From Lentilactobacillus hilgardii DSM 20176 = ATCC 8290 (lineage in GTDB: Bacteria > Bacillota > Bacilli > Lactobacillales > Lactobacillaceae), in contig NZ_GG669992.1 in NCBI RefSeq assembly GCF_000159315.1, forward strand, positions 64,160-110,501: a stretch of DNA of 46,342 nt, read 5' to 3'. The notes beneath the pieces are model-generated. The model was not told where the DNA came from. It saw nothing but the letters and a program-made list of their open reading frames with translations, and made no database searches. Made by a program: the position numbers and the translations under genes. The stretch's first letter is position 1; every line of letters begins with the position of its first letter. Below, in pieces: positions 32,380 to 36,474 of this stretch.

Positions 32380-33257
32380 TTATTCCTGATTTTTCAATGA
32401 TTTTAATGTCACCATGACGTTAAACCAACTAGCATTCGTCCACCCAACGTTGTGATTAAAGACTGCACAATGCTAAGCCCCAGACCGACACTCTGGTTGG
32501 TTCTTGCCTGATCTGCTGTATAGAACCGGTTCATTAACCTAGTCGGATCCTTGGGTAGATTTCTGCCCCGATTGGAAAACGTCAATTTAACATGTGCGTC
32601 ATCAACGCGCACTAATTCAACCCGAACTTCCTTTTCTCCATATTTTAGAATATTGCCAATCAAATTTTGACAGACCCTTGTCAGCAAAGTTGCATCGGTC
32701 TGCAAAATAAGATTTGGACTAATTGTTGGCGTGACCTTTAATCCGCGTTGATTAAACTCATCGTAATAGTTAAACAATTCATTTTCCAACAACGCTGAAA
32801 CGTTTATTTTCTTTACTTTCAACGCAATACTTTTTTCCTGCATCAAATTAAAATCCATTAGGTAGCGTAAATAATAATTAACAGCGTCAAGGTTTCGTCC
32901 AATTCGCTTTAGCTTAGGCTGTTGCGCTGTATCCATTGACCGCATCAGCAATTGAACATACCCCATTGATACTGTCAGCGGCGTCTTGATATCATGGGTT
33001 AAATTCGTCAGCATTCTTCGAACCTGATCGTCCTGTCGAACTTGGGATTGCTGCAGTTCCCGACTGACCCTCAGGCTGGCATTACTCGCATTGATCAGCT
33101 TTTGAATAAGCGGTAAACCGGTATTAGCCGTTACAAAACCATTTGTCGTGTGCGCCTTTATATAAACCAATTCGGCCGTTACTCGCTTAATATCAATGAT
33201 TATTAATAATAATAAAACTGCTAAAACAAGACAAACGATACTCAACATAATTACCAT
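32380..33257 (-). pseudogene. Sensor histidine kinase with frameshifted C-terminus
   Basis: The ATG at 33257 (SD AAGGGGAG) starts a kinase with one N-terminal TM, a short linker, the phosphoacceptor box NLTHDIKTPLTVSMGY, an N-box (VCQNLIGNILKYG), and the G-box SVGLGLSIVQSLITTLGGRM. After GGRMLV the frame runs to a TGA at 32409. The next frame continues FNVMVTLKSLKNQE to a TAA at 32380, a typical last beta strand for this fold. A small deletion of 3n+1 bases near 32425-32432 explains it. The kinase domain lacks its last strand. The response-regulator gene just upstream is reduced to a tail. Confidence 0.78.
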
Positions 33258-33268
33258 GGTTTCTCCCC

Positions 33269-33337
33269 TTAATCGAATCGCACACCAATTCCCCAAATTG
33301 AGTTAACGTATTGGACATTTGTACTTAGCACACTTAT
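33269..33337 (-). pseudogene. Response-regulator C-terminal remnant
   Basis: 22 codons ending in VQYVNSIWGIGVRFD and TAA, 11 nt ahead of the kinase start. The ending is that of OmpR/PhoB-type winged-helix domains (..V.T/S-I/V-W-G-x-G-x-R-F). Upstream of it the frame is closed by TAA, and DNA of the divergent permease gene begins. The rest of the regulator, about 200 codons, is gone, so a deletion or rearrangement junction lies near 33338-33360. Confidence 0.78.
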
Positions 33338-33365: not shown

Positions 33366-34135
33366 ATGATTAATCAACTATGCGCTGATTTTTATCGGCA
33401 AACCCATACGTTGGGGCACTACCTACTATTGATATTAGTTATTCTCTTCAGTATCGTCGTTGTCTATTCCAAGCAAGTCGGGGGTGTAATGGTCAGTGCA
33501 CCGGTTGATGTTCTTGAACGGTTATCGACTGTTCCTTGGACACTGCTATCTGGCATCCATGGGCTGACGATATCATCGAGCGTTTTAATGTACGCATTCA
33601 TCAGCATCTTCGTTATGGTGATCGGTTACGAATTCAGCCAACAAACCTATAAAAATACATTGGTTTCCGGGATTTCGCGCTCTGGCTTTATTATTGCAAA
33701 GCTTGTCACGATGTTATTGGATATTTTCATGCAGATCGTCATTTTTTCCTTGCCGGAATTTTAACGGGAATGGCCCTAGGGCGAAATGTCGGTACCAGTT
33801 AGGCAAACCTGTTCGGCACAACTTTACTGACCGCGCTGATCGTGGCTTTCTTCATTGGCGTTGTATTCAGCATGGCCATTGTTATTTTGATGCTGACAGG
33901 ATCACTAATCGGCAGCGCCGTTTTCATCATTATTTTTCCGCTGCTTGTTTCAATTATCAGTATGATTTCTAAATGGGATTGGTTAAAGTATGTTGATTTC
34001 TTCGGCGTTTCCGTCAAAATCAGCTTAAAGCAGTTCTCGGTTAGTCAGTTTCAACCTTACATCTGGTTTAGTGTCGCCATTTTAATTATCTGTTTTGGTT
34101 TATCGTTGATATTAATCAGAAGAAAGGAATTATAG
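33366..34135 (+). pseudogene. ABC-2 type permease, frameshift plus stop codon
   Basis: The ATG at 33366 follows a textbook AAGGAGG. It encodes a six-TM ABC-2 permease of the lantibiotic-immunity/drug-efflux kind (LGHYLLLILVILFS, FVMVIGYEFSQQTYKNTLVSGISRSGFIIAKL). The frame is lost in a T6 tract at 33743-33748 (one T short) and ends at 33764. The other frame resumes FLAGILTGMALGRNVGTS, meets TAG at 33800-33802, then continues ANLFGTTLLTALIVAFF to the stop at 34135. The span is 257 codons if one base is restored. No ATPase gene is adjacent. Two lesions make this a likely true pseudogene. Confidence 0.85.
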
Positions 34136-34139
34136 AGCA

Positions 34140-34182
34140 GAAAACGCGCACTCTCATTATAAAAGAGGTGCGCGTTTTTTAT
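34140..34182 (+). terminator. Terminator after the ABC-2 remnant
   Basis: AAAACGCGCACTCT (34141-34154) and AGAGGTGCGCGTTTT form a GC-rich stem followed by T6. Confidence 0.9.
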
Positions 34183-34326
34183 TTTACAAATTGGCAATAT
34201 CCCCCATAACATTCACTAAGAAATCATCGTTATCCTTTTCTCGGTTTCAACTGACCAGCATTTTATAATTTGATCATACTCAGGACTCCGATTAATTGCA
34301 ATCACATTTTAATATGCATCTCTGCC

Positions 34327-34355
34327 TTGCACTTTTCCTGTCAATTCACTACACT
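34327..34355 (+). promoter_or_regulatory. Promoter of the leader-MFS transcript
   Basis: TTGCAC (34327-34332), 17-nt spacer, TACACT (34350-34355). It lies about 40 nt before the small leader ORF and 165 nt before the exporter, leaving a long structured leader. The rest of the gap 34183-34326 shows no gene. Confidence 0.5.
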
Positions 34356-34394
34356 AATTCATAATTATATTGATTATTTCTCGAGGTGAAACTA

Positions 34395-34448
34395 ATGCTG
34401 GCTTGGATTACATTAAAACACTGCATCATACAGGTAACAACACTCTAG
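34395..34448 (+). CDS. Putative 17-aa leader peptide
   Basis: A 17-codon ORF, MLAWITLKHCIIQVTTL, with a well-placed SD (GAGGTG, 6 nt before the ATG) and stop TAG at 34446-34448. It ends 71 nt before the MFS exporter start. Its last codons lie inside the sequence that can pair with the exporter's SD. Its size, its own SD and its position fit a regulatory leader peptide read by the ribosome. Chance cannot be excluded at this length. Confidence 0.55.
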   Translation: MLAWITLKHCIIQVTTL

Positions 34449-34511
34449 TGACCGCATAAAAATAAAACCAGACAACTCTCTATATACCCGGGTTGTCAAC
34501 TCACTGGAGTG
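34441..34511 (+). promoter_or_regulatory. Anti-SD stem, translation attenuator candidate
   Basis: CACTCTAGTG (34441-34450, including the leader stop codon) can pair over all ten positions with CACTGGAGTG (34502-34511), which contains the SD of the exporter at 34520; nine are Watson-Crick and one is U-G. An inner hairpin GACAAC/GTTGTC (34471-34497) would bring the arms together. In the folded state the exporter SD is masked. A ribosome paused near the leader end would open the stem, as in erm- and cat-type attenuation. Confidence 0.6.
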
Positions 34512-34519
34512 TTTATCTA

Positions 34520-35701
34520 ATGAAAACTAATTATCCAACTAATATCAACACAGGTTATGCCTATACATTTTTCTCCTTTTTCGGGATTACCGGTTTATGG
34601 GTTATCTACCTGCAGATGCAAGGGTTAAGCCTTGTCGAAATCGGCCTGTGCGAAAGTATTTTTCACGTTGCCAGCTTTTTGTTTGAAGTGCCAACCGGCG
34701 TTTTGGCCGATCGCTTTTCCTACAAATCCATTTTAATCGGCGGCCGGATCGCATCAATTCTGTCCGCAGTTATCATGCTGACAAGTCATACATTTCTAAT
34801 GTTTGCTTTCAGCTTTGTGTTAAGTGCCTTATCCTATAACCTACAGTCTGGCACAATCGATGCCCTGATGTACGATTCACTTATTGAGACAAGGCAAACA
34901 AAGGCCTATCCCAAAATCATCAGTACAGTCAACGTGCTGTATGAATTTGGCGACACTGCCGGGGTTGTCATCGCAGGTTTTTTCGTTCATTGGCACTTTG
35001 AATTAACCTATGTTATCTCTATCCTAATCGGATTCTTCGCGCTCATTTCAATCTTAATGATGAAAGAACCCCACGTCACACCATCAAAGGTATCAGCCCA
35101 AGCCCCCGAAACCATTGGGTCGATTCTAAGAACTTCCTATCGGGTTCTTAAAACCAATCGCGTATTGAGAAACCTGATGTTTTTTCAGGCTGTTTTTGCC
35201 GGAATTTGCACCTCATACTATTTTTATTTTCAATCGTTGATGGAGAAAGCCCATTTTTCGGGATGGATGATCTCACTTTTAATGGTGACTTCAGCGGCTG
35301 TCAATATTGTCGGCATCCACTTTACCCCTATTATCCAAAAACGTTTTCCAAAAGCTGTTTTGGTCAATAGCCTCAGTTGGTGCCTGATTGCCCTTTTACT
35401 GGTCAGCTGGCTTGATTGGATTCCTATGCTAATGATGCTTTTTCTCACCTCACAGCTCCTCTCATCCCTTGTGGAGCCGATTTTCAGCAGCTACTACAAC
35501 GAAATGATTGATTCGAAGCAGCGGGCCACTCTCCTGAGTATCGCAAGCGTGCTGTTCTCCTTTGTGATGATCGGCCTATTTCCACTTGTCGGTTGGCTAA
35601 TTGAGCACTATAATTTCTCATTTGCATTTGGAACAATCGGCGGCATTATACTAATCCTATATATAACAACCCGTATTAAAAGCCGAACCGTCTTAAAGTA
35701 A
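34520..35701 (+). CDS. MFS transporter, probable drug exporter
   Basis: A 393 aa protein with about 12 TM segments. The start is the ATG at 34520, 8 nt after TGGAGTG; in-frame codons further upstream (34493) lie in the leader. TM1-2 reads TGLWVIYLQMQGLSLVEIGLCESIFHVASFLFEVPTGVLADRFSYKS, with the MFS motif A (G-x-L-A-D-R). The F-E-V-P-T-G-x-x-A-D form is common in putative efflux MFS proteins of Firmicutes. The substrate is not known. The leader arrangement suggests induction by a ribosome-acting compound. It is a single gene with a terminator behind. Confidence 0.85.
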   Translation: MKTNYPTNINTGYAYTFFSFFGITGLWVIYLQMQGLSLVEIGLCESIFHVASFLFEVPTGVLADRFSYKSILIGGRIASILSAVIMLTSHTFLMFAFSFVLSALSYNLQSGTIDALMYDSLIETRQTKAYPKIISTVNVLYEFGDTAGVVIAGFFVHWHFELTYVISILIGFFALISILMMKEPHVTPSKVSAQAPETIGSILRTSYRVLKTNRVLRNLMFFQAVFAGICTSYYFYFQSLMEKAHFSGWMISLLMVTSAAVNIVGIHFTPIIQKRFPKAVLVNSLSWCLIALLLVSWLDWIPMLMMLFLTSQLLSSLVEPIFSSYYNEMIDSKQRATLLSIASVLFSFVMIGLFPLVGWLIEHYNFSFAFGTIGGIILILYITTRIKSRTVLK

Positions 35702-35724: not shown

Positions 35725-35779
35725 AAAAATCCTCTTCCGATCCATGGTATTCAACCCAAGGTATCGAAAGAGGATTTTA
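35725..35779. terminator. Bidirectional terminator
   Basis: AAAAATCCTCTT (35726-35737) and AAGAGGATTTT (35768-35778) form the outer stem, with inner GAT/ATC pairing. It serves the MFS gene and the convergent Lys/Ala-repeat gene. Confidence 0.8.
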
Positions 35780-35869: not shown

Positions 35870-36420
35870 TTATTTAGCGTACTTTGCGTAAGCCTTGTTC
35901 AAGTTAGCTTGGGCAGCCTTGTATGCCTTAAGGTATTTAGCCTTGTTGGCAGCAGTCTTGGCTTTCTTGTAGTTGGCTTTAGCTTTGGCTACTTTAGCCT
36001 TAGCGTTCTTTACAGCAGTTGGGTGTTGTAAAGTAGCCAGCTTAGCTTGGGCACTCTTGTAGCTGGCAAAAGCCTTCTTGTAAGCTTTAAGGTATTTAGC
36101 CTTAGTAGCTGACTTCTTAGCTTTTTTGTAAGCTGCTTGGTACTTCTTAGCAGTTGCTTTAGCTTTAGCAACCTTAGCCTTAGCTGATTTAACGGCTTTA
36201 GCATGCTTTGAAACAGTTGGTGTCTTAGTTGAAGATGATGATTCAGTTGGTGTCAAAGTTGATGACGAAGAAACTGATGTTGAGCTGCTTGAAACTGCTG
36301 AACCACTGGTTGCGGTTGCAGTTACGTTGTCAGTGTTGTTGGTATGTAAGCTTGCTGAAGCTACACTGCCAACGGAAAAGAGTGTGACCGCTGCTGTTAG
36401 ATATAGTAAAGTTTTTTCAT
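35870..36420 (-). pseudogene. Lys/Ala-repeat secreted protein, frameshift in signal peptide
   Basis: A well-placed SD (GGAGGG, 8 nt) precedes ATG 36420, but the frame reads only seven codons. With one extra A in the A6 tract at 36412-36417 it becomes MKKTLLYLTAAVTLFSVGSVASA, a classic signal peptide, joined to a Ser/Thr-rich linker (about 25-65). Two Lys/Ala repeats of about 50 residues follow (each with KAKVAKAKA.. and KAKYLKAYK..), predicted helical. The span then is 184 codons. An out-of-position start at 36460 exists but has no SD. It is probably a cationic surface or wall-associated protein with no LPXTG; function unknown. The break may be real, phase-variable or a sequencing error. Confidence 0.75.
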
Positions 36421-36474
36421 GTATAATACCCTCCGAGTTATGTTTTACCAATTTAGTCATTATCTATGACCGAA

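Follow-up and report, generated by a model that had tools for sequence, protein, structure and literature searches.

The window analyzed here (46,342 nucleotides of Lentilactobacillus hilgardii DSM 20176 = ATCC 8290, contig NZ_GG669992.1) carries a gene for an MFS exporter that is preceded by a short leader ORF with its own SD, and the end of this leader is predicted to pair with the SD of the exporter (Table 1). Both the 17-codon leader with its SD and the identity of the downstream gene, which a first-pass annotation had read from the sequence alone, were confirmed, the latter by a Pfam profile. Similarity of the exporter to named efflux families is weak (the TetA(P), Tet(40), and Cmx/CmrA profiles all scored far below their cut-offs, and NorA was reached with a phmmer E of 7.5e-4), and the libraries searched gave no close named relative and no named substrate. 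In the excerpts of PMC11732008, tetracycline MICs were above the cut-off in all tested L. parabuchneri strains, with the same cited for the genus, and this report together with the weak profile likeness to TetA(P) and Tet(40) makes tetracycline a lead as exporter substrate, no more.

Table 1. Features of the leader and exporter locus, in window positions
Feature	Position	Strand	Details and basis
Promoter-like pair TTGCAC-17-TACACT (weak)	34327-34355	+	7 of 12 consensus positions, hand count
SD of the leader ORF, GAGGTG	34383-34388	+	sequence; GAGGT also flagged by script
Leader ORF, MLAWITLKHCIIQVTTL then stop	34395-34448	+	17 codons; leader present in 28 loci; pN/pS 0.16 for codons W to W+8 (16 Lentilactobacillus loci)
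Arm A of the SD-sequestering stem	34439-34451	+	overlaps the last codons and stop of the leader; 12 bp in fold, 13-bp duplex
Inner hairpin between the arms	34471-34497	+	fold; not conserved as a feature, absent by reading in 5 of 28 loci
Arm B, holding the exporter SD GGAG (34506-34509)	34501-34513	+	sequence, fold, duplex, comparison
MFS exporter, 393 aa	34520-35701	+	ATG at 34520; Pfam MFS_1, 106.7 bits

Inverted repeats with a T run were seen by reading at 34144-34180 (after the upstream gene) and at about 35725-35775 (after the exporter), so the exporter would be a single-gene unit. A histidine kinase is encoded on the minus strand at 32409-33296, about 1.1 kb upstream of the leader, with VanS as its best profile match at a sub-threshold score (108.7 bits, cut-off 400), and a repeated-unit ORF on the minus strand (35870-36460), Ala/Lys-rich by reading, gave no Pfam or NCBIfam matches. 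The promoter is the weakest part of the layout and only slightly supported: the pair proposed in the first-pass annotation has a similar layout in the two closest relatives (TTGTGA-17-TATACT and TTGCAC-17-TAGAAT, the second one by reading), but it matches the consensus in part and was not listed by the promoter scan, which listed CTGTCA-16-CATAAT at 34338-34365, and over the 28 loci the top promoter score in the region preceding the leader averaged 8.1, compared to 7.8 in shuffles, hardly above chance.

The pairing first proposed between the leader end and the exporter SD, over ten positions (34441-34450 with 34502-34511), turned out to be the core of a 13-bp duplex between arms A and B, and the minimum free energy structure of 34395-34530 (RNAfold) includes 12 of its pairs (34440-34451 with 34501-34512). 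Compared with shuffled leaders, as had been suggested, this region folds more stably (-30.9 kcal/mol, whereas shuffles averaged -19.8 with an sd of 3.24, giving z -3.43; one of 200 shuffles matched its energy). The inner hairpin is present in the window's fold (about 34471-34478 with 34490-34497) but inconstant among relatives; both it and the promoter are weaker than the first-pass annotation implied. Two features of the erm/cat layout are found here: a short ORF that has its own SD, lies upstream of the regulated gene, and is under selection in its own frame, and, as folding and comparison suggest, an SD of the regulated gene that is paired with the leader's end. The intrinsic terminator that mef/erm(K)-type systems carry between leader and gene was not seen in the window (no terminator-like site in 34100-34560 in a scan of loops of 3-8 only, which missed the long-loop upstream repeat too). 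Rfam gave no match at curated score in the window; in 15 loci searched at E<=5, one match exceeded its curated score, a T-box in L048 at a large distance from the leader, and the other eight were all below their own curated scores.

The leader peptide contains no known stalling motif. The RLR or +x+ motif, as given in the excerpts of PMC4335068, PMC10314930, and PMC6310831, is absent from MLAWITLKHCIIQVTTL, which places the leader outside the erm(K)/mef family. The RLR-type leaders of erm(K), erm(D), mef, msr(A), and hflXr were ruled out on this ground, and the minimal uORFs of the VmlR/CplR type by their length (three codons, versus 17 here).

Conservation of the leader and of the predicted SD-hiding stem

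Among the 60 relatives searched, 24 were of the same genus (Lentilactobacillus, the window's own genome included), and exporter orthologs were present in 16 of these 24 genomes (E<=2.1e-144). In all 16 orthologs the leader follows the pattern [ML]-x-[AT]-W-I-x-L-[QK]-H-x-[IV] (that of L011 was found by reading, not by the leader-finding script), and all 16 have an arm complementary at the exporter SD. The first-pass annotation had named a lack of leader and pairing in close relatives as one ground for dropping its reading, and the reading withstood this check. A further 12 loci of this SD type comprise ten of Liquorilactobacillus type, in five of which the genus is an assignment by group code, as well as Ligilactobacillus ubinensis and Agrilactobacillus fermenti, which brings the SD type to 28 loci, 27 of them with distinct arms. 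From another search, 14 new loci were read; G426 (broken by stops) and G035 (already present as L017) were left out of the relatives. Because they are conserved across relatives, the leader and the stem are likely more than chance.

The two arms also appear to be matched to each other. Own arms gave a mean duplex energy of -19.3 kcal/mol compared to -16.7 kcal/mol for swapped arms, with none of 5000 permutations as good, and in a 15-column register 343 of 405 cells were paired, compared to a mean of 322.9 in whole-arm shuffles, with 343 reached in none of 2000, although these permutation counts overstate the strength because the rows are related and non-independent. Sliding the registers left 120 to 163 paired cells. 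Nine core pairs are standard in all 27 distinct arm pairs and one core pair varies (G-C in 21 rows, G-U in one, and A-U in five), but at the outer edges of the 15-column register most pairs are lost. Compensatory changes, which the first-pass annotation had proposed to look for in orthologs, were partly borne out: some were found, but pairs with two-sided changes numbered six, hardly above the mean of 5.0 in whole-arm shuffles. Overall, the sequence comparison suggests that the SD-hiding stem coevolves, and the direction is clear despite the relatedness of the rows. Fold z-scores of the whole leader were below -2 in 19 of the 28 loci.

The inner hairpin varies in sequence, and by reading four Lentilactobacillus loci and the Agrilactobacillus locus have a short inter-arm spacer only. 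These five loci (fungorum, rapi, dabitei, kisonensis, and Agri. fermenti) also have their leader stop just 18-30 nt ahead of the exporter start; the distance is 51-121 nt in the other 23. In L008, L011, L013, and L014, where the inner hairpin is absent, the leader ORF runs through arm A and ends 18-28 nt before the exporter, and a terminating ribosome would approach or cover the exporter SD. A shortened exporter frame with the leader present was observed in L005 (1849-2652, minus strand, L. parakefiri, inner TGA), L017, and L062, the last two being the Agrilactobacillus and Liq. oeni loci.

Selection on the leader acts on its peptide. With W as the conserved Trp codon and later codons counted from it, codons W to W+8 are under purifying selection in the 16 Lentilactobacillus loci (pN/pS 0.16), and codons W+9 to W+11 of the same loci have a pN/pS of 0.68; reading the same leader DNA in its two other frames gives 0.82 and 1.30. 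The Trp codon is invariant in the 27 distinct SD-type leaders, and the His codon is present in 22 of these 27, with K or R in five.

Farther relatives and resistance-type genes with the AGTCT element

Exporter homologs in Lacticaseibacillus, Oenococcus, and more genera and families have leaders such as MQNQIINWIALNNAIINIFAA, LAAWISLQHAIINVLVLKG, and VLAKFLAWINLKRTIFAVMVMSG, and the SD stem was not found in these relatives. By reading, an RGGGG-NNN-AGTCTGCCC element (AGTCT element hereafter) lies directly 3' of, or within, their leader ORF, often followed by a T run (in many copies, not all), and a second terminator-like repeat often precedes the gene. A model of the element built from 22 copies matched 54 of 94 sources at E<=0.05, training copies included; it misses the variant in L051/L114 and in L107 matches a later hairpin. 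The model gave no match at the leaders of the 15 SD-type loci given to it (of 28) and none between leader and exporter gene in the window. In the window's genome as a whole, 12 matches reached E<=10, the best of them at 0.017; the best two of the 12 were read, look like ordinary terminator-like repeats by an integrase-like and a cation-ATPase-like gene, and were set aside. The element was rejected as a proven hairpin, as its six-pair stem had 78.8% of cells paired compared to 78.6% in shuffles (77.3% and 75.8% when slid by +1 and +2). The element is conserved in sequence, and the T run in many copies suggests that it folds and terminates; its output is probably transcriptional.

Most of these leaders share a register relative to the GGG codon of the element, with W/F/Y 15 codons, H/R/N 10 codons, and I/L 8 codons before it. 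At least three of the four register positions were found in 34 of 46 loci and at 27 of 920 shifted anchors, a count that takes in L107, L179, and near-duplicates and describes the pattern rather than testing it independently, since the motif was first seen in some of these loci. A fixed distance from the peptide motif to the switch thus appears likely and is supported by this comparison.

A strict search for the element in 325 genomes of the order gave nine matches, and its reversed control none; two were at these exporters, five were before ABC-F genes of one genus that looks like Listeria, and two were unexplained. In L168 and L169 (about position 1500, E about 2e-4), the element lies by a leucine-biosynthesis-like gene and is followed by masked sequence (N), respectively. 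Among 398 genomes at class level there were five matches, with two in the reversed control, and these include one ABC-F leader and one Erm gene; the matches in L175, L176, and L178 look unrelated and were set aside.

Six ABC-F genes (L170, L171, L172, L173, L174, and L177, at about position 1500) are thus preceded by both a leader in register and the AGTCT element. Three of them were checked by profile and the other three by reading; the profile scores of 343-360 bits stay under the cut-off of 380, the genes being truncated where the locus ends. Their leaders follow x-L-x3-R-A-[IL]-F, with the W position taken by F or Y in five and by L in L177; the five order-level leaders (e.g., MFLSKAQASFVEFLYIVRALFSIAGTQGDKSALLEVTA) fit the register, and the class-level leader has R and I in register with L instead of W/F/Y. 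In L179 (1493-1522, minus strand), the element lies between an RLR-type leader, MYSVRLRFPTLNR, and an Erm gene (261 bits with the NCBIfam Erm model, whose cut-off is 212), which shares the element but not the peptide, and the element is therefore not tied to the W/H-type peptide. The leader was also sought before other genes with the pattern DTGNNNRCNTGGATHNNNYTNMARCAY, and none was found at this strictness in 395 genomes of the order, only five of them Lentilactobacillus: eight genomes matched, three through this exporter's own leaders in Lentilactobacillus, and the other five matches look like chance (three out of frame in a valyl-tRNA-synthetase-like gene and two elsewhere).

Proposed control of the exporter by its leader

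The effect of a ribosome on the stem was modeled by holding open the bases -14 to +16 from the first base of the P-site codon and computing SD unpairing by folding; the +16 edge is consistent with the toeprint distance in the excerpts of PMC9226507. Folding a blocked mRNA to equilibrium imitates a stalled ribosome only roughly. The mean predicted probability that the SD is unpaired was 0.00 without a ribosome and through W+6, 0.05 at W+7, 0.42 at W+8, and about 0.5 over W+9 to W+15 (28 loci through W+14 and 16 loci at W+15). Among individual loci, three were partly open already at W+7, in the window the SD was freed to no more than 0.21-0.23 and in Liq. satsumensis to 0.15 at most, and in Liq. 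oeni it closed again for late stalls. The constraint on the peptide fades at W+8, which is the first position where a ribosome stall would matter for the SD.

We consider it probable that the exporter is under ribosome-mediated translation attenuation, in which the SD stem keeps expression off and a ribosome stall on the leader peptide turns it on. In the off state, the leader end would be paired with the exporter SD, as conservation and folding suggest. In the on state, a ribosome whose P site has stalled near W+8, which is codon 12 and the second I of KHCII, or slightly later would cover arm A and, judging from the folding model, make the exporter SD more accessible. As the motif is selected up to about W+8, the peptide itself probably stalls the ribosome through its nascent motif W-I-x-L-[QK]-H-x-[IV]-x, most likely jointly with a small molecule that targets the ribosome and would be pumped out by the exporter. 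The inducer is probably a ribosome-targeting compound; the link to antibiotics comes from the leader and element before six ABC-F genes and the element, without the peptide, before an Erm gene, and a drug is a better guess than an amino acid because leader and element also precede ABC-F genes. Against this reading, arm A would likewise be covered by a ribosome that terminates on the leader, and normal translation may therefore give some basal expression. The first-pass interpretation is partly supported: the erm/cat-like layout that it recognized is a well-supported, probable mode of action, and the leader itself falls outside the erm(K)/mef RLR family.

Three other explanations were weighed. 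The leader might sense slow translation caused by a shortage of an amino acid or its charged tRNA (Trp or His) and not a drug, as the invariant Trp codon and the His codon of most SD-type leaders would allow. We regard this as unlikely, because the Trp and His codons are single, with no runs, His gives way to K or R in five of 27 leaders, and Trp is replaced by F or Y in related leaders; the I, the L, and the spacing are conserved too, and the gene is an exporter. Moreover, arm A would stay uncovered by a ribosome stalled on the Trp codon, and the folding model gives a probability of 0.00 for an unpaired SD at W in all 28 loci. Coupling or reinitiation, in which ribosomes ending on the leader restart at or unfold the exporter start with no stall, is known in this form for some tet leaders. 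It would suit the five of 28 loci with a leader ending 18-30 nt before the exporter, and the window's leader stop overlaps arm A; we find it improbable in view of the 23 of 28 loci in which the leader ends 51-121 nt upstream, and a peptide motif that fades after W+8 is not expected from reinitiation.

The ORF might also be incidental, with the stem opened by a trans-acting factor, an antisense RNA, or temperature, since a stem by itself could act as a thermosensor or be targeted by an sRNA. The purifying selection on the ORF in its own frame only argues the other way, as does the persistence of a similar peptide motif in relatives where the other element is present and no SD stem was found, and this explanation strikes us as very unlikely indeed.

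Known systems and likely origin of the switch

Among known systems, ermC uses a set of alternative hairpins, compared to one long-range stem here, and mef is an MFS gene. With ermC, the present locus has in common, going by the excerpts of PMC4191407 and PMC10219788, a leader ORF with its own SD, a leader end that lies in an SD-hiding stem, and an SD that a stalled ribosome would expose; it differs in that the peptide is unrelated and that the target is a methyltransferase there and an MFS exporter here. The mef(E)/mel and erm(K) systems, with RLR leaders such as MTASMRLR, likewise place an efflux gene behind a leader on which a stall disrupts an attenuator (PMC4335068, in excerpt), but the RLR motif is absent here, and in the window the scan gave no terminator in the stretch that separates the leader from the gene. 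The MsrDL leader (MYLIFM) before the ABC-F gene msrD, where in the excerpts of PMC10314930 the stalled ribosome directly obstructs a downstream terminator, is the closest parallel to those relatives in which the GGGG...CCCTTTTT element comes right at the leader stop; it differs in having another peptide, a transcriptional output, and a known macrolide inducer. The uORFs of VmlR and CplR (MIN and MRI) and Listeria Rli53 are similar in that uORFs control Bacillota resistance genes through alternative structures (excerpts of PMC9226507, PMC10201436, and PMC8079631), but those ORFs have three codons, compared to 17 with a conserved internal motif here. Finally, the BmrB leader of bmrCD also represents leader-peptide control of a multidrug exporter that responds to ribosome inhibitors (PMC4191407, in excerpt), and by its description it differs in being a longer leader with transcriptional control of an ABC transporter.

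Ribosome-mediated attenuation of exporters and ABC-F genes is thus already known (excerpts of PMC4335068, PMC10314930, PMC4191407, PMC9226507, PMC10201436, PMC6310831, and PMC8079631). For the present family of leader peptides and its combination with two switches, we recognized no description among the matches listed from open-access PMC text. The excerpts of PMC2965389 describe sensing systems that were exchanged for the same gene; there the sensor was exchanged, whereas here the sensor would stay and the output change.

In an exporter tree of 88 rows, built by a quick method with a midpoint root and with row labels partly set by reading, the 28 SD-type rows form one side of a branch (SH-aLRT 96), 40 AGTCT-type rows lie around this clade, and five rows are unassigned; several long branches were flagged, so single placements are unsure. 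Among the 15 leaderless rows, 11 form an outer group (one Streptococcus-like genus, others of order or family rank, and a Lactococcus plasmid). Leaderless rows within the leader-bearing group are, by reading, L060/L108 (one sequence twice), L120, and L131; L132, L133, L134, L136, and L137, of the subclade of L131, were left out of the leader reading. The simplest reading of the tree is that the SD-type switch arose once.

These comparisons suggest a broader picture that we rate as an even bet: one family of nascent-peptide sensors, approximately [WFY]-[LI]-x3-[HRN]-x-[IL]-[IF] and set at a constant distance from the switch, may serve two unrelated classes of resistance-type protein, MFS exporters and ABC-F proteins, across several families of Bacilli with two different RNA switches, an older AGTCT element, probably transcriptional, and then an SD-hiding stem acquired once in the ancestor of the Lentilactobacillus/Liquorilactobacillus exporters, so that the sensor was kept and the output moved from transcription to translation. 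If true, a peptide class without a known stalling motif would join the short list of drug-sensing leaders, here in fermentation bacteria, and a stall is predicted once the P site has reached roughly the second Ile, which lies eight codons past the Trp. It would also constitute a natural experiment in which a ribosome sensor was rewired between outputs with its peptide unchanged.

Second copies of the exporter occur in some genomes: L131 (a second copy without visible leader), L132, L133, and L136 adjoin the leader-bearing L113, L127, L125, and L116, respectively, of the same genomes.
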